A stretch of 64,000 nucleotides of DNA from Pycnococcus provasolii (lineage: Eukaryota > Chlorophyta > Pseudoscourfieldiophyceae > Pseudoscourfieldiales > Pycnococcaceae). Made by a program: the position numbers and the translations under genes. The stretch spans positions 248,001 to 312,000 of the forward strand of contig OW568886.1 of assembly GCA_938743325.2 (NCBI GenBank), given 5' to 3'. Of the stretch, positions 9,320 to 64,000 are shown in pieces. Numbering within the stretch: position 1 is the first letter of the stretch; every line of letters begins with the position of its first letter. Below the pieces are notes generated by a model. That model did no database searches and was not told the DNA's origin. It saw nothing but the letters and a program-made list of their open reading frames with translations.

Positions 9320-12082
9320 ATGAGCTCACCTGCAAGCTCGACAAACTTCACCAGAGAGACTTGTTGCCAACGTTTTGATACCTCCTGGGAATCCAACGAA
9401 GCTGTCGCCGAAGGAGAGTCCCGCAGTCCCGCACGCGCCGCGATGGCCTCGGCCGCACGCACGCTCTTCGAGCAAGTCGACGCGAACGGCGACGGCGTTC
9501 TGTCCCTGCACGAACTGCGAGCGTGGCTTGAGAAGAACGGCGAGGAGTCGCTCGGAAACTCGCTCTTCTCTGCTTTGGATACGGATTGTGACGGTGTCGT
9601 GACACTGGAGGAGTTCTCTGAGGGATTTGAACAGGTCATTAAGCATAAAAAAGACACGCCTGGCTCAACCGAGCACGTCTTTCCTCAACTCAGTGTGCGT
9701 CTTGCGTGGCTGAGACGATTCGCAGAATCATGCAAGGGCAAGAAGTACACGTGGACTGCTACACACCACCTTAAGGCGGAGCATGGCGGTGGTAAAGATG
9801 ACGTCGTGCAAATCAACGTGGATAACCTTTTAGAGCACCGCGAGCGCACGAACGCCGCAGGCAAGGATGGCGATGGCAAACCCACAATAGTGCAGTACAC
9901 CGAGATTCCGTTCGAGCTCATGACGACGAACGACGTGTGCTTTGGTATCGTTAAGCCTGCGACGGAGCACGTCAGAACCTCGTATGTCGAGTTGCTGAAA
10001 AGCACCGAGCCTGCTGAGGTGAAGTCTGCAACGGCGTTTGTGTCGCACGCCTGGAAGTACATATTCGTGAACGTCGTCGATGCGCTTAGCCATCTCTCTG
10101 AGGATTCGTTCGTGTGGTTCGACGTGTTCACCGTCAACCAGCATGCGAGCTCGCAAGTTCCAACTGACTGGTGGTTCACGACTTTTAAGGAGGCAGTCGC
10201 GAGTATCAAACACACCGTGCTTATTTTGATGCCTTGGGATGATCCCATTCCGCTGACGCGCGCTTGGTGCATCTGGGAGATTCTAAGCACCATTACCGGG
10301 TTGGCGAAGCTCGAGATTTGCTTACCGGCGGTGGAGCAGGAGGCGTTTGCGAAGTTCCTCGTCACTGAGGGCGCAGGACAAGTGATAGTGAAAATGGTGA
10401 AGATTGACGTACAGCGTGCCGAGGCGTTCAAGAAAGAAGACCGTGACGCCATTCTTGAAGCGGTGAAGAAATTTCGAGGTGGCCCGTCTGAGGTGAACAA
10501 GCTCATTAAGGACGAGATGCGAAGCTGGGTGGTGGAGAGTGCGAAACGTGCGTTGGGTACGCTGGATTCAGAGGAGCGAGCGACATCAAACTTGTTGACG
10601 AGTGTCGCAATCTTGCTCAGGGACCAAGGCAAGCACGACGATGCGGAGCCACTGTTACGCGAGGCGCTCGACGGATATCGTCGCGAGCTCGGCGATGCGC
10701 ATCCAAGCACGCTTCACTCCATCAATGAACTCGCACTTTTGCTCCAGCGACAAGGCAAGTACGACGACGCCGAGCCGCTGTTACGCGAGGCGCTCGACGG
10801 TTCTCGTCGCGAGCTCGGCGATGCGCATCCAAGCACGCTTTTGTCCATCAACAACCTCGCAGTCTTGCTCCAGCGACAAGGCAAGTACGCCGACGCCGAG
10901 CCGCTGTTACGCGAGGCGCTCAACGGTTCTCGTCGCGAGCTCGGCGATGCGCATCCAGACACGCTCAACTCCATCAACAACCTCGCAGGCTTGCTCAAGC
11001 AACAAGGCAAGTACGACGACGCCGAGCCGATGTTCCGCGAGGCGCTCGACGGTTATCGTCGCGAGCTCGGCGATGCGCATCCAGATACGCTTACGTCCAT
11101 CAACAACCTCGCAGCCTTGCTCGATGAACAGGGCAAGTACGCCGACGCCGAGCCGCTGTACCGCGAAGCGCTTGACGGTTATCGTCGCGAGCTCGGCGAT
11201 GCGCATCCGCACACGCTTACGTCCATCAACAACCTCGCAGTCTTGCTCAAGCGACAACGCAAGTACGACGACGCCGAGCCGCTGTTACGCGAGGCGCTCG
11301 ACGGTCGACGACGCGAGCTCGGCGATGCGCATCCACAGACGCTTATATCCATCAACAACCTCGCAAACTTGCTCTATGAGCAAGGCAAGTACAACGACGC
11401 CGAGCCGCTGTTACGCGAGGCGCTCGATAGTTCTCGTCGCGAGCTCGGCGATGCGCATCCAGACACGCTTAGCTCCATCAACAACCTCGCGATTTTGCTC
11501 AAGCAACAAGGCAAGTACGCCGACCCCGAGCCGCTGTATCGCGAGGCGCTCGAGAATTCTCGTCGCGAGCTCGGCGATGCGCATCCAGACACGCTTACGT
11601 CCATCAATGGCCTCGCGCTCTTGCTCAAGCGACAAGGCAAGTACGACGATGCGGAGCCGCTGTACCGCGAGGCGCTCGACGGTCGACGTCGCGTGCTCGG
11701 CGATGCGCATCGAGACACACTTACGTCCATCAACAACCTCGCAGTCTTGCTCAAGCAACAAGGCAAGTACGACGACGCCGAGCCGCTGTACCGCGAGGCG
11801 CTCGACGGTCGACGACGCGAGCTCGGCGATGCGCATCCGGATTATGGAACTACGTGCTACAATTTCGCGATTTTTCTGAACAAGCAAGAGAAGTTCGATG
11901 AGGCGGCTTCCTATTTCGAACGAGCGGCGCATGCTTACGAGCAAACCTACGGTGCCGACCACGAAAAAACTCGCGATGCGCTAGCTCAAGCTGCTGATGC
12001 TCGTAAACGAAGCGAAGCGAGTGTCCAGCATGCCACACGCCGTTACCGGCGGGTTAGACGTCCGCCAAAAGTCGGCGAATGA
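9320..12082 (+). CDS. EF-hand / TIR-like / kinesin-light-chain-type TPR protein
   Basis: A 920-aa multidomain protein. Two EF-hands with intact Ca2+ loops lie at about 54-65 and 87-98. A middle domain (about 238-360) starts FVSHAW and contains VWFDVFTVNQH and PLTRAWCIWEI. This pattern resembles TIR-like domains, in which the WC..E part faces the active region. From about 423 to 890 there are eleven 42-residue TPRs of kinesin-light-chain type. Ten are nearly identical (QGKYDDAEPLYREALDG, RRELGDAHPDTL) and the last is diverged. The order suggests a Ca2+-regulated scaffold or signalling/defence-type protein rather than a true kinesin light chain. Function is unknown; a start at residue 42 is also possible. 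Confidence 0.8.
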   Translation: MSSPASSTNFTRETCCQRFDTSWESNEAVAEGESRSPARAAMASAARTLFEQVDANGDGVLSLHELRAWLEKNGEESLGNSLFSALDTDCDGVVTLEEFSEGFEQVIKHKKDTPGSTEHVFPQLSVRLAWLRRFAESCKGKKYTWTATHHLKAEHGGGKDDVVQINVDNLLEHRERTNAAGKDGDGKPTIVQYTEIPFELMTTNDVCFGIVKPATEHVRTSYVELLKSTEPAEVKSATAFVSHAWKYIFVNVVDALSHLSEDSFVWFDVFTVNQHASSQVPTDWWFTTFKEAVASIKHTVLILMPWDDPIPLTRAWCIWEILSTITGLAKLEICLPAVEQEAFAKFLVTEGAGQVIVKMVKIDVQRAEAFKKEDRDAILEAVKKFRGGPSEVNKLIKDEMRSWVVESAKRALGTLDSEERATSNLLTSVAILLRDQGKHDDAEPLLREALDGYRRELGDAHPSTLHSINELALLLQRQGKYDDAEPLLREALDGSRRELGDAHPSTLLSINNLAVLLQRQGKYADAEPLLREALNGSRRELGDAHPDTLNSINNLAGLLKQQGKYDDAEPMFREALDGYRRELGDAHPDTLTSINNLAALLDEQGKYADAEPLYREALDGYRRELGDAHPHTLTSINNLAVLLKRQRKYDDAEPLLREALDGRRRELGDAHPQTLISINNLANLLYEQGKYNDAEPLLREALDSSRRELGDAHPDTLSSINNLAILLKQQGKYADPEPLYREALENSRRELGDAHPDTLTSINGLALLLKRQGKYDDAEPLYREALDGRRRVLGDAHRDTLTSINNLAVLLKQQGKYDDAEPLYREALDGRRRELGDAHPDYGTTCYNFAIFLNKQEKFDEAASYFERAAHAYEQTYGADHEKTRDALAQAADARKRSEASVQHATRRYRRVRRPPKVGE
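10587..11860 (+). repeat. 126-bp coding tandem repeat (TPR array)
   Basis: Ten head-to-tail 126-bp units, each encoding one 42-aa TPR, lie inside the gene at 9320-12082. Neighbouring units share long identical stretches at the DNA level, for example CGTCGCGAGCTCGGCGATGC in most units. This points to recent unit duplication or gene conversion rather than selection on protein alone. Confidence 0.9.
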
Positions 12083-21330: not shown

Positions 21331-22587
21331 TCACGTATCAAGCAAACGCGTGCACCGACGTGTCCAAAAACGCTTGTGCCTTGTGGGAAGCTGACTCAGC
21401 AAGTCGACGAGCGAGCGATCGCTGTCACGAACCAGCGAAGCCTCCTCCGGAGTGAGACCAACGGGAACGAGACCGAGCGCGCGACGTGAGCTTGCGCTAG
21501 AACACAGCTTGAGCGCGGCACTCGCCGCGACTGGCGGGGCATTGGCGTAGGGGTCTCGCGATGGCGTGCTAGCCGTGCCATGTGGCCAGAACACGTTCAC
21601 GCTCGCATGAAAGGACCCACTCGCCTCTCGCGCCGCATGCAGCCAAAGAGAGGGAAGGTACAGCGCGTCGCCAGCACGCAAATGCGCCACCGCACCTTCG
21701 CGCCTCGCAAGCTCCTCGAACTCCTCGAACGTAACGGGAGGTGAGCTTAGCGCACCTCGACCTCCGAGCGACGCGTCGTGATCTGGAGACAGGAAGAACA
21801 CCTCCTTGTCTCCGACGACGCTCGCGAGAATGTTGTCCATGCAGTCGAAGTGCGCCCAAACGCTCACGCGCGCTCCAGACATGCGAAGCACGCTCGAGTG
21901 TGCATCCGAAGGGAGTAGAAGCTTCTCGAGAGCGGGAAGGCCGAGGGCAGCATGGAGCTGTGGAAACGTACTGTCAAGGCGGCTTGGCTCCTTGCGTGCA
22001 TCCGCGCCCACGCTGCGTAGGTAGAAGTGCGAATCGCCGTTCACCTTCGAGCATCGCTCCACGAGCTCGCCTATTGCCAGTGTTTCGAACGTGTAATTTC
22101 GCGTCGGATGAAACGTTAGCACCGGGGTGTGATCGCAGCGATGAACGACGACAGGACTCGACGTGTCACAGCACGACAGCAGTGCACTTGCATCCCAGTT
22201 GGCGTGCCACTTCGCCTCCGCTGATAAACGAGCCAGCTGAGGGAGCAGGCGGCGCACGATGCACGGCGTGTTCGATCCAATCACCCGCGTTTCGAAGTCG
22301 TCACGTGACTGTAGCGAAGCACCGTCCACCTCACGAAGTTTCCAGCAGCTGTCGTCGTCACGACAAGGGACGGTGGCGGCTTCTCTTTGTTTCGAGAGAT
22401 AAGCTGTTGCCGCCGCCGCCGCCGCTGCTGTTGCTGTTGCTGCTGCTGCCACTGCCGCGGATCCCACGACGACAGCGGCGCTTCGTCGACGCAACGACAT
22501 GGCTGCCGCCACCACGCCAGCCGCCGCAACTGCCGCTGCGGCAGTCGTGCCATTTGTTCCAGACGGCGTCGGCGGCGGCATCGGCAT

Positions 22588-22622
<35 letters not shown>

Positions 22623-24486
22623 GCTTCTTGAACGGGCTCACACAAACATCAGCAACCACGTGGTAGCATCCAGGCGCATATTGCTTCACCCGCACCGGCT
22701 GAGGCGGTGAATCGGCAAGCGTTGCCTGCATCTTATTTTCGCAATCGTCGCAGATCGACTGCATCTTGCGAATCACATCGCGTACCCACGCAGACTCGCC
22801 ATCCGCACCACCGTACGCCAGGCCATGGACGTGCAGTATGCCGCCAGTGGGCTTTAGCGCACGAACAGCCACATCGTACGAGCACTCCGAGCTCGGGAGC
22901 GTTCCAAGCAGCACACGATCCGCAACGCCGACAGGTGCCACGAGCCTGTTATCGCCCGTTCGAATGTCGATGCGATTTGCGTCAATGCCGTTCAGCGGGA
23001 GAGCCCGACGCAGCGCATCTGTGGCGGTGGTATTCCAGTCCATCGCGGTGACGTGCGCCGCTTGGCTGTGAACGAGCGCGTGTAGAGTGAAGTACCCTAT
23101 GCCGCAGAATAGATCGACGACGTGCTCGCCACTCATGTCAATGCTGCCCATGCGCTGCTTCTCCACGGCATTCCCACGACTGAACATGTTTGTGGTGACA
23201 TCGAAAAAGTATGTAACGCCCAGCTCGTTGTGCTTCACCCATCCGCTGTCGCCGTGCAAAAGCCGAATCGTCGATGTGCGCTTGCCATCCGCAGCAATGC
23301 CGCCATCTTTGGTGTTTCTCGTCGCGAGCCGTTGCACCTTGAGGTGCGCGGCGACATCTGCGAAGAACGATCGAATGCTGTCGGCAGAAGCGGCTTTGGT
23401 CGCGCTGTCGAAGAGCTCGTGGTTGAACGCGCTGCGCGGTAGGATTGCGATTTTATTGTTATCGCTGCCAAAGATGTCATATTTCTTTGGAAGCGTCGAT
23501 AGGGCGTCGCTGATGTTGGTGATGGGTGGAAGGTGGAGGTAAAGAAAGCAAGTGGCGATCTCAACGAGTGACGCTTTTGGTAGGGATGGTGTGCTGTTGT
23601 TGTTGTTGTTGGCGGTGGTGGTGGTGGTGGTGGTGTCCGCAGCGCGTGCTGCGGCAGCACGAGCGCGCGCCCGCCCGCGGCGAGACTTTGGTTTGCTCTG
23701 CTTCACGTCTTGAGCACGCACGCTCTCCTCAGCACGCTGCGTAGGCACCTCGTCTTGAGCACGCACGCTCTCCTCAGCACGCTGCGTGCGCATCTCGCCT
23801 TGAGCACGCACGCTCTCCTCAGCACGCTGCATGCGCATCCATCCGTCGCGCAACATGCGATTACACTCCTTTGTCCACGTCTCCGCTTGCTGCTTCGTCG
23901 TGATGCCATGCAGCGGAACCTCAAGGCGTGCAGTCGTACGCCACGTGACGACGAACTTGTCGCTTCCTCCTCGAGTCACGCCCGACTCTCGGAATCCCGC
24001 GTCGCGTCCCATGTTCGCCAGGGCGAACGCCGACGCCGCGGAGTTTGCTTCCATCGCGACGATCGGCGCCTCGCAGAGGAGCACGCCACCGTGGTGCTCG
24101 CCCTCGTCATCACCGCGGCACTGACACACGCGTTCGATCGTCGCGACGTCCACGGGGTCGTGCGAGACGAAAGTCCATTCGTTATGAAAGCGCACTGCGA
24201 CACGTCCCGAGCACGACGAGAGCGAAAATGCGTCATCAGATGCGTTGATGGCAAATAAGAGGCTTGAAACGCGTGCGTCAATCAAGCCTTGTGGGGACTT
24301 ATCCTTATTATGAGTGCCAGAAACAGAAGACGCAGATGAAGAGGACTGAAAATGACCCCCCACAGACTCGGGTAGGAATTCCAAGACGTGTGATCGTCTC
24401 TGACGGAACTCAAAGAACGATGCAGACCTCGACGAGCTCTTAAAAGAAGAAGAAGGAGGAGGGGCGACATTGGTGTCGGAGGACAT
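21331..24486 (-). CDS. Wybutosine-synthesis fusion protein: TYW3 + TYW2 + TYW5 (JmjC)
   Basis: A 1051-aa fusion for the hypermodified base at position 37 of tRNA-Phe. Residues about 61-220 are TYW3, the N4-methyltransferase: SLSSCSGR, FVSHDPVD, GFRESGVT, RLEVPL. Residues about 300-619 are TYW2, the aminocarboxypropyl transferase: SAM motif VVDLFCGIGYFT, FGSDNNKIAILP, VLLGTLPSS, GGILHVHG. Residues about 718-978 form a JmjC domain closest to the TYW5 hydroxylase: WAHFDCMDN gives His879 and Asp881, LPSLWLHAAR gives His950, and NVFWPH follows. Linkers are three 15-aa RAEESVRAQ repeats and a Pro/Ala-rich stretch. Known chemistry puts these as three successive steps (yW-86, yW-72, OHyW-72). TYW4 is absent. 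It starts at the first ATG. Confidence 0.88.
23706..23840 (-). repeat. 45-bp coding repeat (three copies)
   Basis: Three near-identical 45-bp units encode the 15-residue repeat with core QRAEESVRAQ. They form the charged linker between the TYW3 and TYW2 domains. A Thr/Asn-rich run follows. Confidence 0.85.
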
Positions 24487-24727
24487 ATCCCTGCAGGCCG
24501 ATGATTCGATGAACGCCGCCGCCGACGCCCCCCCCAAGAGAGAATGAAAAAGCCAAGTGGGAAATCCAAAAAACGGGCGAGGCGTGACAACACAGCTTGG
24601 CTCGTGGGAGGCCCGGGATTCCTCGTTGGTCCGGATCTTAGGACGGGAGAGTGTCGGGATTCATTCGGGATCCCGCTCCGACGGACTTTCTTGAACTACG
24701 ATAGGCCTCTCTAAACCTTTACGGTAG

Positions 24728-59782: not shown

Positions 59783-60883
59783 TTAGGGTTCGAATTGGGG
59801 AAGGTCACGGTAGTCAATCTTGCTGAATTTGCTCGTTGAAACTAACGGTGGCTTCCCACAGTCGAGTGCCATGTGGTGTGGAATGCACTTTCCACCCTTT
59901 TGATGCGTTTTAAATGTAAGGATGCACTTTTCAGGTGTAGAATGGCCTCCTCCAAAGCGTCCAGCCATCGTACAAATTGCATTCTTGCGGCTGATATCGT
60001 CAATCGCACATACCCACTTTTCATTGTAGTAGTAGTGATTCGTGAGAGTGAACGTCAAGCCATGCGCTTCTGACTTCGCATAGAAGTACTGAGTTTCGTA
60101 TAGGGGCCGTGGCGGTACAAACTCGAGAAGCTGACGACGACGGCCATCACCACCCGCATCACCACCATCACCACCAATGACCAAAGATGGACCAACAACA
60201 AAACCACCATCACCACCAGGGATCTCACCAATGATGCTGCACCCATCACCATGGCACCCACCACCACCAGAAGCGTGAGTGACAGTGTACCAAGTAGCTT
60301 CACTCGCATCATCAGGATGTCCCCAGAAGGGAAGACAGTGTTCTTCCTTCTTTACTTCGCAAGGACCAGAGTAGTAGTCAAACTTGGCATACTTGCGATA
60401 CTTCCATGTAAACGGCGAGTACCACTTCGGCTTGGGGTAGAACGTGTCGCACGGGTAGTACTCGTCCTGCTCGTACTGCTTCCCATAGTACGGCCCAACT
60501 CCATATTTAGAGTCGTACTTGCTGTAGCCGTATCCAGAGTCGTACTTGCTGTATCCAGAGTCGTACTTGCTGTATCCAGAGTCGTATCCAGAGTCGTATC
60601 CAGAGTCGTACTTGTTGTCATTGTACTTGTTGCTGCTGTACTTCCACGTCCACGGCGCCCACCACTTGTACTTGGGATAGTAGCCTGATTTGTATTCATC
60701 ACCGTAGTAGCCTGAGTTGTATTCATCAACGTACGTCGTCGTCTCATAAGTCGTCGTCGTCGATTTGTCTGCGCTCACACCACTCACGGCACTGAGCATT
60801 ACGACGACAGCAAGCAGAGCGACCAGAACGGCTGATGACGCCGTGACGATCGATCGCATGTTCCTGACATTCGTCGTCATCAT
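59783..60883 (-). CDS. Secreted Tyr/Gly-rich repeat protein, paralogue 1 (short form)
   Basis: A 366-aa protein from the first ATG with a signal peptide (hydrophobic about 12-33, cleavage near VSA|DKS). A Tyr/Lys/Ser/Asp-rich segment with tandem SGYSKYD units and WYSPFTWKY blocks is followed by a Cys-containing domain (HCLPFWGHPDD, HYYYNEKWVCAIDDI, CTMAGRFGG, KCIPHHMALDCGK). It ends at QFEP with no leucine-rich repeats. This architecture suggests a cell-wall or extracellular-matrix protein; Tyr-rich repeats can be cross-linked. The downstream paralogue shares up to 100% DNA identity. No family name is known to me. Confidence 0.75.
   Translation of the reverse strand: MMTTNVRNMRSIVTASSAVLVALLAVVVMLSAVSGVSADKSTTTTYETTTYVDEYNSGYYGDEYKSGYYPKYKWWAPWTWKYSSNKYNDNKYDSGYDSGYDSGYSKYDSGYSKYDSGYGYSKYDSKYGVGPYYGKQYEQDEYYPCDTFYPKPKWYSPFTWKYRKYAKFDYYSGPCEVKKEEHCLPFWGHPDDASEATWYTVTHASGGGGCHGDGCSIIGEIPGGDGGFVVGPSLVIGGDGGDAGGDGRRRQLLEFVPPRPLYETQYFYAKSEAHGLTFTLTNHYYYNEKWVCAIDDISRKNAICTMAGRFGGGHSTPEKCILTFKTHQKGGKCIPHHMALDCGKPPLVSTSKFSKIDYRDLPQFEP
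60225..60487 (-). repeat. Segment identical to 63738-64000 (tandem gene duplicate)
   Basis: 263 bp is identical to the right edge of the window, at an offset of 3513 bp. Similarity continues to the left with about 96% identity down to about 59795/63311, covering the Cys-rich domain of both paralogues. It may extend further right beyond the window. Confidence 0.95.
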
Positions 60884-61563
60884 CTTCGTTACTACCACTA
60901 TTATGGTATACTGTTTTGTATGAGCCAATCAACAAACGCCTGCGCGCTGCCAATCTATCAGGTATGATGAGGACCAACCGACCAACGCGTGCAGTGATTG
61001 ATGAGGACGAATCAATGAGCGAGCCAATCAATGAACGAAAGGAGCCAAGGTACCATACAAGCCTGCAAAAGTAGTAAGCTGGCTGCACTAACGAACCACC
61101 ACTGGGCACCACTCACGAACACATGCAGGAGGCGTGACATGTTTCGCATGAAACTAAATTGGCGAACAAATAACGGGCGGAGGGGCCGAGGGAGCTGGTC
61201 CGGGGCCGCGGGGAGAAGAAGAGTTCGGGGTTTATTACGATTCGGGCAGGCGGCTTGTTGTGATCCTTAATAAGCTTGCATACCTTCTGCTGTACATAGA
61301 CTAGTGAGCTCGCACGACCGTCCCGAGGCGTTCTCAGTGGACATCGTGATTGCCGCGGTCGTCCGGACGTCGCTATGTACAACAAACAGTTGACAACTTA
61401 AGAAGCGTGCGTGCGCGAGTGCCTTGCGAGCGTTCAGAAGAAGAAGTTTTTTGTTTTTGTTACGACGACTTACGAGTTACGACAAACCTAAAATTCATAC
61501 TGTATGTATATGCAACTAAGCACCCACCCACCCACCTGGGCAGCATCATTCATTTATCACTCA
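60884..61563. other. Intergenic region between the paralogues
   Basis: No gene is supported. Sequence with AATCAATGA-like repeats (about 60995-61040) lies upstream of paralogue 1. The rest is the 3' flank of the LRR gene. Confidence 0.5.
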
Positions 61564-63254
61564 TCAGCGGCATGCATTCGACGGGCATCTACCACTTATC
61601 GACGAGAAGAGACCGTCATCATCGCTTCCGCACACGGTGGGAGCATCGCTGGCTCCATAGCAAGCAAACAATCCAGAGAAGGATCTTTGCTCTAGTTTGC
61701 TGAGGTCCGCGTCGAGGAATCGTTGGTCCTCGTCGTCGCCGATGCACACAGAACCTCCATCTACAAGGTTGGGTGCGCAGAGTGTCTGGAGATTGCTGTT
61801 GGCGAAAACCTGTAAAGTTGGAGGAGGATAGATTGTCAGAGGGAAAAAGGATGGAGGGTAGGAGGTGAGTTTGGTGTTGTTGTGACGATGAATGTATCTG
61901 CTGTGTTGGTTGCGTACCCAGAATTGGTTGCTCGATGTCTCCAGCACAGGCATGCTGATGCCGACGAGGTTCTCGTTGTCGCGGATCTGTTGTTGTTTCG
62001 TTTGTATTGGATGGTGGATTGAAGGTACTGTAAGTTTGGTGTTGTTGTTGTTGTTGTGGTGACGATGAAATGACGAATCTATTTGTTGTGGGAAAGAATG
62101 AAAGAGACATCGGATATCACGTACCGAGAGTGAGTTAGTTGTGCTGAGCTTGGGCAGGCTGAGTTGCTCGAGGTTCTCGTTGTTACTGATCTGTTGTTGT
62201 TTTTGTTTGTATTGAAAGGTGGTACTGTAAGTTTTGGTGCTGTTGTTCTTGTGACGACGATGAATCCATTTGATGACGGGTTGTCACGTACCTGGAAGAC
62301 ATTGGTCACTGTCGTCAAGTCAGAGAGCTTGACGTCGACGAGTTCAGGATTGCCAAACATCTGTTGATTTGTTTGTTGTATGGAAGTTTTGTAAGGAAGA
62401 AGAGTGAGTGAGTAAATTTCATACGCAGCGAGTGATACGATTTGTTATGGAAGAACAAACAAATTCAAGGAATACAAAAGGTGAGAGTGAGACGTACTAG
62501 GACGCTTCTCGCCTCCATCAGCGCACACAAGTCCACCTTTGCGAGATTCGGGTTGCCTCCGATCTGTGTGTTCAGGGAGGGGTGTTGTTTTGTATGTGTC
62601 GTTGAGTGGTGAGTACATGGTGAGTTTTATGCAATCAGTTGAAAAGTCAATTATGAAAGGGATACGTACTTGGACGCCCAAATTCGAGCTACCCACAAGA
62701 CGAGGCGCGTAGATGCTCGTCAAAGAGCCTTCACTGATAGGGTCCGCGAACTATTGTTGTTGTTATTATTTGTTGTTTGATGATACGAATGGTTGTTGTG
62801 TTGTTGTGAATTTGTGATTTGGTTTGTTAGTGAGGTGCTACCAAATGGAATGTGTGTGTTCTGTCGAAGACACGCCATATTATTGTAGAAGAACATAAGG
62901 CAGAGCACCAAGAAGAAGGAGGAAGGGTCGAAGGGAAAGCAAGTAAGGAGGAGGAGTGCACGTACCCCGAATAGACCGTCCGGTCCTGTCACCCAGTTGG
63001 CGAAGCGAGCCTCCGCAAGATTTTCGAGTTCTCCAAATTCAAACTTAAAATCCACCTCCTGGGACGATTCGATGCATGGGAATGACACGACGGTGATGGC
63101 AGAAGGATCGCCGCCTAATAGTAAGATGTCAAACGCGATCCTGCCGAGGGTGATTGTTTCTCCTTCGAATGGCTCGGTGTCGCACGAGGTATACTTGGTA
63201 CCAACCAGGCGCCTACTTCCATCACAAGTATTGCACTCCTCGAGATCTTGCTGA

Positions 63255-63301
<47 letters not shown>

Positions 63302-64000
63302 GATGTCCTTGTGGGGAATGTCACGGTAGTCAATCTTGCTGAATTTGCTCGTTTCAACGTACGGTGGCTTCCCACAGTCGAGTGCCATGTGGTGTGGAAT
63401 GCACTTTCCACCCTTTTGATGCGTTTTAAACGTAAGGATGCACTTTTCAGGTGTAGAATAGCTTCCTCCAAAGTGTCCAGCCATCGTACAAATTGCACTC
63501 TTGCGGCTGATATCGTCAATCGCACATACCCACTTTTCATTGTAGTAGTAGTGATTCGTGAGAGTGAACGTCAAGCCATGCGCTTCTGACTTCGCATAGT
63601 AGTATTGAGTTTCGTATAGGGGCCGCGGGTAAGAAAGTTCGAGAAGCTGACGACGACGGCCATCACCACCCGCATCACCACCCGCATCACCACCCGCATC
63701 ACCACCCGCATCACCACCATCACCTGGGACAATGGGATCACCAATGATGCTGCACCCATCACCATGGCACCCACCACCACCAGAAGCGTGAGTGACAGTG
63801 TACCAAGTAGCTTCACTCGCATCATCAGGATGTCCCCAGAAGGGAAGACAGTGTTCTTCCTTCTTTACTTCGCAAGGACCAGAGTAGTAGTCAAACTTGG
63901 CATACTTGCGATACTTCCATGTAAACGGCGAGTACCACTTCGGCTTGGGGTAGAACGTGTCGCACGGGTAGTACTCGTCCTGCTCGTACTGCTTCCCATA
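61564..64000 (-). CDS. Secreted Tyr-rich/leucine-rich-repeat protein, paralogue 2, 5' partial, seven exons in window
   Basis: Exons (transcription order): 62966->64000, 62670-62750, 62498-62563, 62292-62360, 62125-62190, 61918-61986, 61564-61809. All six introns are 101-215 bp, phase 0, with GTACGT or GTACGC donors and AG acceptors. Exon 1 repeats paralogue 1 (Cys-rich domain), then a 15-Thr run from TTG repeats and a beta-rich part (VSFPCIESSQEVDF). Exons 2-7 each begin one leucine-rich unit of Ecm33/receptor-L type, I..N.NL..L.LP.L, of 22-27 residues. The last exon adds a Cys-rich tail ending SNACR, with no membrane anchor. Probably a cell-surface or wall protein. The N-terminus is outside the window. 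Confidence 0.85.

Follow-up and report, generated by a model that had tools for sequence, protein, structure and literature searches.

One open frame in the green alga Pycnococcus provasolii joins TYW3, TYW2 and a TYW5-like JmjC domain

Does a single algal protein carry three consecutive enzymes of wybutosine synthesis? The question is raised by one locus of Pycnococcus provasolii, within a window of 64,000 nucleotides (contig OW568886.1, positions 248,001 to 312,000), that is, the whole stretch of DNA analysed here. A first-pass annotation had read, from the letters alone, an uninterrupted fusion of TYW3, TYW2 and a TYW5-like JmjC hydroxylase, and had placed it in a green alga. The host is indeed a chlorophyte, of the class Pseudoscourfieldiophyceae. 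The genome that we searched has 32,333,900 bases in 46 contigs, with C26 at 616,396 bases and two small contigs, C45 and C46, of 24,277 and 80,243 bases. The published assembly of strain CCAP 190/2 has 44 chromosomes, a mitochondrial sequence of 24.3 kb and a plastid sequence of 80.2 kb, in total 32,253,916 bases, with a longest scaffold of 1,490,684, an N50 of 757,545 and an N90 of 486,817 (PMC11130579).

We found that the frame is real and that it contains all three domains. The open reading frame spans 21331..24537 on the minus strand, and translation from the ATG at 24486 gives the protein laid out in Table 1. The coordinates first proposed for it are correct, and it is stop-free over its 1051 codons. 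A Pfam scan of the frame returned three domains, each above its curated cut-off, and no LCM or Kelch match. When the genome was searched with the frame, a single site was found (100% identical, open frame of 1109 aa, zero stops); the sole other match at E <= 0.001 was a JmjC domain on contig C2. Since the three Pfam matches are independent and each has an E-value < 1e-22, we rule out a chance result or a spurious long frame.

Table 1. Coordinates of the fused frame, its parts and the second TYW5-like protein of the genome (window positions unless a locus is named)
Feature	Location	Strand	Remarks
Whole coding frame, TYW3 - linker - TYW2 - linker - JmjC	21331..24486	(-)	1051 aa plus stop
TYW3 domain, residues 59-227	23806..24312	(-)	Pfam PF02676, 4.6e-27
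Linker 1, residues 228-300	23587..23805	(-)	repeats, then R/A-rich and T/N runs
TYW2 region, residues 301-619	22630..23586	(-)	Pfam PF02475, 5.6e-25
TRM5-TYW2_MTfase Pfam core, residues 419-584	22735..23232	(-)	PF02475
Linker 2, residues 620-717	22336..22629	(-)	largely Pro/Thr/Ala triplet runs
TYW5-like JmjC domain, residues 718-1000	21487..22335	(-)	Pfam PF13621, 1.3e-23
P0002, second TYW5-like JmjC protein	L002:433-2934, G000 C2 about 708-710 kb	(-)	833-codon frame

Two other places in the window caught our attention. Two neighbouring frames, at 59783-60928 and 62720-63574 and both on the minus strand, share by eye a near-identical segment of ~85-90 residues (TNHYYYNEKWVCAIDDISRK...) that has no Pfam match at E <= 1e-5, and are perhaps a recent tandem duplication in an unknown family. 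An EF-hand protein on the plus strand (9320-12082) contains 11 TPR_12 stretches, whose mutual likeness suggests a recent repeat expansion.

The first two domains were assigned as had been proposed. The TYW3 match scores 95.2 bits against a cut-off of 27, covers positions 13-210 of the 211 of the profile and is the only match of its family in the genome. The nearest solved structures are archaeal UPF0130 (TYW3-like) proteins, and the motif SSCSGR at residues 90-95 is common to the archaeal structures 2drv, 2qg3 and 1tlj. The TYW2 region reaches 88.6 bits with PF02475 (cut-off 28), a family with three matches in the genome: this frame, a TRM5-like protein and one match below the cut-off. Its best solved relative is MJ1557 (3a27, 9.7e-20), at 73 bits versus 34 bits for Trm5b. 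Among NCBIfam models Taw2 comes first (1.2e-26, 93.9 bits versus 38.2 bits for Trm5b), with all scores below the archaeal equivalog cut-offs. By these scores the region is nearer to TYW2/Taw2 than to TRM5. Residues K443, D483 and D512 were noted in it. K443 presumably corresponds to human K225 and is kept, and D483 presumably takes the place of human E265 and is changed. In the structure-search alignments the archaeal proteins MJ1557 and PH0793 both have R at the first of these places and E at the second. K225 and E265 are described as critical in human TYW2 (PMC3386263); the E to D change in the alga would be a conservative one.

The third domain matches Cupin_8/JmjC over residues 730-969 (84.6 bits, cut-off 27.4). 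Its best solved relative is human TYW5 (C2orf60; 3al5, 3al6) with an E-value of 5.7e-24 for 3al5, versus 0.35 for JMJD7-type proteins and 0.45 for FIH. In the alignment with the 338-residue human chain, 84 of 258 columns are identical. The iron site that had been noted is intact: H879, D881 and H950 (the Fe(II) triad) and K894 (2-oxoglutarate) fall opposite H, D, H and K in the human enzyme, which we take to be residues 160, 162, 235 and 175 in native numbering. Human TYW5 is not known to be fused with either TYW2 or TYW3.

Cupin_8 has 31 matches in this genome, in 30 frames, and we compared all of these frames with human TYW5 alongside 18 proteobacterial loci. The latter came from a genome contig collection in which 64 pattern matches yielded 18 relatives, all of them proteobacterial records, which served as the outgroup. 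Two frames of the alga stand out. A JmjC domain on C2, in a protein that we call P0002, scores 149 bits and the fused domain 89 bits, followed by a bacterial sequence at 54 bits and another frame of the alga at 47 bits. The H/D/H triad, an Asn near the iron and the 2-oxoglutarate Lys are identical in all three TYW5-like rows (fusion, P0002 and human TYW5), and the C-terminal motif D.Y.N..P.AAS.A (D.YxNxxPxAASxA) is common to them. We then placed the 30 frames, eight bacterial loci, human TYW5 and a piece of human KDM8 in one tree (40 rows, 217 columns; FIH and 10 of the 18 bacterial loci were left out, the loci by thinning of similar ones). The fusion, P0002 and human TYW5 form one clade (support 97/88), in a tree with many long branches outside that clade and a human TYW5 row of odd composition. 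The fused domain thus belongs with human TYW5, apart from KDM8 and from the remaining JmjC proteins of the alga, in agreement with the annotation. A JmjC protein unrelated to TYW5 is ruled out by the scores and the tree.

Structure prediction was less discriminating. The AlphaFold model of the fused domain was built from 13 rows, 12 of them bacterial, and is of modest quality (pLDDT 56, pTM 0.63). The six best Foldseek E-values all belong to human TYW5 chains (8.1e-13), and JMJD7 comes next (1.2e-9). The TM-scores are around 0.5 and do not separate TYW5 (TMq 0.48, TMt 0.57) from FIH (TMq up to 0.50) or JMJD5 (TMt up to 0.62). Human TYW5 is thus the best match both by sequence and by Foldseek E-value, and on the similarity scores and the tree the fused JmjC domain is of TYW5 type.

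The account of this domain in the annotation is nevertheless incomplete. The likeness to TYW5 holds, but P0002 scores higher against the human enzyme (149 versus 89 bits), so the fused domain is not simply "the" TYW5 of the alga. P0002 belongs to the same clade as the fused domain but has a different partner: behind its Cupin_8 domain (2.1e-32) lies an aldo/keto reductase at the C-terminus (PF00248, 5.5e-38). AKR4 enzymes are among the best solved relatives of that reductase. We know of no function for this pairing. A resemblance of the P0002 N-terminus to the N-terminal domain of TYW2 was rejected, as 872 of 2000 shuffled sequences score equally high and Pfam is empty there at E-values up to 10.

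P0002 may therefore be the working TYW5, in which case the fused domain would be a diverged paralogue with another job, such as hydroxylating a protein or a different RNA, or simply assisting in tRNA binding. The gap in scores against human TYW5 speaks for this view (149-154 bits, with an E-value of 3.9e-43, for P0002 versus 87-89 bits for the fused domain), as does the branch of the fused domain, the longest of the three members of the clade (1.42 versus 1.1 and 0.98). But the fused domain keeps every Fe and 2-oxoglutarate residue and the C-terminal motif, and the three sequences are about equally distant from one another (36.2, 32.6 and 35.5% pairwise identity). Moreover, its fusion partners are the very enzymes that make the substrate of TYW5, which points to yW-72. 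We regard a different job for the fused domain as unlikely, though to be taken seriously. Either of the two proteins, or both, may be the working TYW5, and this is our main reservation.

Our preferred reading is that the frame encodes one trifunctional enzyme that makes yW-86, yW-72 and OHyW* on tRNA-Phe. The DNA architecture is certain; the trifunctional enzyme is likely, and we put it forward as the probable reading of domain content. Its substrate would be G37 of cytosolic tRNA-Phe, already processed by TRM5 and TYW1. The TYW2 domain would produce yW-86 by moving an aminocarboxypropyl group from AdoMet onto 4-demethylwyosine, and the TYW3 domain would methylate yW-86 to yW-72. Using Fe(II) and 2-oxoglutarate, the JmjC domain would then hydroxylate the side chain of yW-72 to give OHyW*. 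The flexible low-complexity linkers could pass the anticodon loop among the three sites, and such linkage might speed the hand-over of the tRNA. The reading presumes a single mRNA and a single protein from the frame, activity of all three domains and yW-72 as the substrate of the fused JmjC domain; we infer each of these. Against it count the higher score of P0002 and the longer branch of the fused domain, the modest fold model with its undiscriminating TM-scores, D483 in place of the critical human E265, the triplet-repeat linker before JmjC, the negative search for a cytosolic tRNA-Phe gene, and the negative scans of viral contigs for a relative with the same fusion.

The middle part of the plant TYW3-TYW2 fusion is a Kelch region. 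The land-plant precedent invoked by the annotation exists: Arabidopsis At4g04670 likewise has TYW3 ahead of TYW2 in one polypeptide and is listed as Tyw3+Tyw4c+Tyw2 (PMC2956550). In that protein TYW4c lies between TYW3 and TYW2; in the alga none was detected there (linker 1 has no Pfam Kelch match), and a TYW5-like JmjC domain follows TYW2 instead. Nor is it new that TYW5 should be joined to another enzyme of the pathway, since TYW4 of Trypanosoma brucei is reported to have a TYW5-like JmjC extension, which has been likened to TYW4 of Aspergillus oryzae (PMC4417183). The partner differs: in the alga it is TYW3-TYW2, which act just before TYW5, and in T. brucei and A. oryzae it is TYW4, which acts after it. 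The JmjC domain of the alga could thus descend from such a TYW4 extension rather than from a stand-alone TYW5, and the fusion would then be what is left, after rearrangement, of a larger TYW2/3/4/5 protein. Both precedents can be read in favour of this origin, as can the presence of two TYW5-like domains in the genome; against it, LCM and Kelch are unmatched in the fused frame. We think this origin improbable. Its product would still be hydroxylated, and it is compatible with the trifunctional enzyme.

The frame might also yield two proteins, TYW3-TYW2 and a separate JmjC protein, through an internal start, for example at Met663 (MSLRRRSAAVVV...), or through splicing or early polyadenylation. 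Linker 2 is made of triplet runs and is stop-free in four of six frames, the coding frame included. An open frame there costs little, and its openness alone is weak evidence for a continuous product. The Met in linker 2 is followed by an Arg-rich, Ala/Val-rich stretch that could act as a leader peptide. On the other side, the frame runs without a stop from TYW3 through TYW2 into JmjC. That TYW2 has no stop behind it is the stronger argument, because TYW3-TYW2 without JmjC would require splicing, early polyadenylation or a non-stop mRNA. A missed stop is unlikely in an assembly from HiFi reads with a QV of 58.2 (PMC11130579), and a single pathway unites all three domains. Separate products are in our judgement very unlikely. 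Linker 1 is itself repetitive: it contains most of an array of 2.9 copies of a 45-bp tandem repeat (23709-23839), the rest of which overlaps the last part of the TYW3 match.

Linker 2 also contains two hydrophobic stretches (residues 647-665 and 672-690; Kyte-Doolittle 1.77 and 1.79) with an Arg-rich turn between them. A membrane hairpin here is a lead only, because the insertion-energy sum, a rough one, is positive (2.1-2.6) despite the high Kyte-Doolittle values. The TYW1 protein of the alga (L096:581-2971, C6) has a similarly hydrophobic N-terminus, MLAYLLAVAKALVFLAW..., with Kyte-Doolittle values of 1.72 and 1.64 and an energy sum of 2.0-3.0, reckoned likewise, and may be membrane-anchored as well. 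One could picture TYW2, TYW3 and TYW5 working in series, anchored by the hairpin of linker 2 beside TYW1, with the P0002 reductase processing the hydroxylated side chain, so that without TYW4 the pathway would end in OHyW* or a new oxidised or reduced derivative. We offer this as a long shot.

The trifunctional enzyme would depend on the rest of the pathway, and part of it was found. TYW1, which the annotation suggested looking for, is present on C6, where the protein has a flavodoxin, a radical SAM and a Wyosine_form domain, and the TRM5-like protein is encoded on C18. No convincing TYW4 was found among the four LCM matches of the genome. One of them is nearer to the PP2A methyltransferase LCMT1 than to yeast TYW4 (77 versus 40 bits) and has no Kelch match, two have LCM alone in Pfam, and the fourth was judged by the family search and the list of open frames only. 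With a BUSCO completeness of 86.9% (PMC11130579) and introns possibly hiding exons, this absence is weak evidence.

The annotation had held that the fusion skips TYW4, which is mistaken. According to PMC4682802, TYW5 uses yW-72 and OHyW is then finished by TYW4, an order also given by PMC7694415, where TYW4 is in addition named with TYW5 for hydroxylation. The sources are not uniform: the legend of a figure in PMC4417183 has TYW5 hydroxylate yW-72 while the introduction has it turn yW into OHyW, and in PMC4810244 yW is converted to OHyW by TYW5. As TYW5 precedes TYW4 on most accounts, the fusion joins three consecutive steps and skips none. Should TYW4 really be missing, OHyW* would be the last product of the pathway; from the gene content, OHyW* or OHyW is a reasonable prediction for the alga.

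The presumed substrate was searched for as well. A gene for cytosolic tRNA-Phe was not found in the nuclear genome by pattern, ARAGORN or Rfam. A 30-base plant-type tRNA-Phe pattern with three mismatches allowed had zero matches in the genome, and none of the six loci matching GACTGAAGATC contains a tRNA according to ARAGORN (without and with introns) or Rfam. Scoring 63 of 587 tRNA candidates gave 27 matches to RF00005, 24 on C45 and C46 and three nuclear. The nuclear genes, on C11 and C3, are one Tyr and two Trp, all intron-bearing (42 and 64 bases according to ARAGORN, with the Trp intron at position 35).

We found no description of a TYW3-TYW2-TYW5 fusion in the openly licensed literature, covered mostly as titles and abstract openings; within that scope it is an unreported combination of known families. 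Two scans of viral contigs gave no convincing case of the same fusion: 24 pattern matches included no relative, and one match at query residues 579-603 was judged to be chance. As to the nucleosides themselves, OHyW has been detected in T. cruzi (PMC13210174), and the available text of PMC2956550 reports wybutosine derivatives as undetected in Arabidopsis and cites them for wheat tRNA-Phe.

TYW5-type domains, described in these papers for humans, trypanosomes and Aspergillus, are now found in a green alga as well. If the trifunctional reading is true, the frame encodes a naturally occurring chain of three enzymes that take a single tRNA base through consecutive steps. It opens the question of hydroxylated wybutosine in a chlorophyte, and of whether linkage aids the hand-over of tRNA-Phe between sites; the strain is maintained by a culture collection, and its genome sequence is publicly available (PMC11130579). 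Different lineages have joined different neighbours of this pathway, TYW3-TYW2, TYW4-TYW5 and here TYW3-TYW2-TYW5, and the reason is testable.
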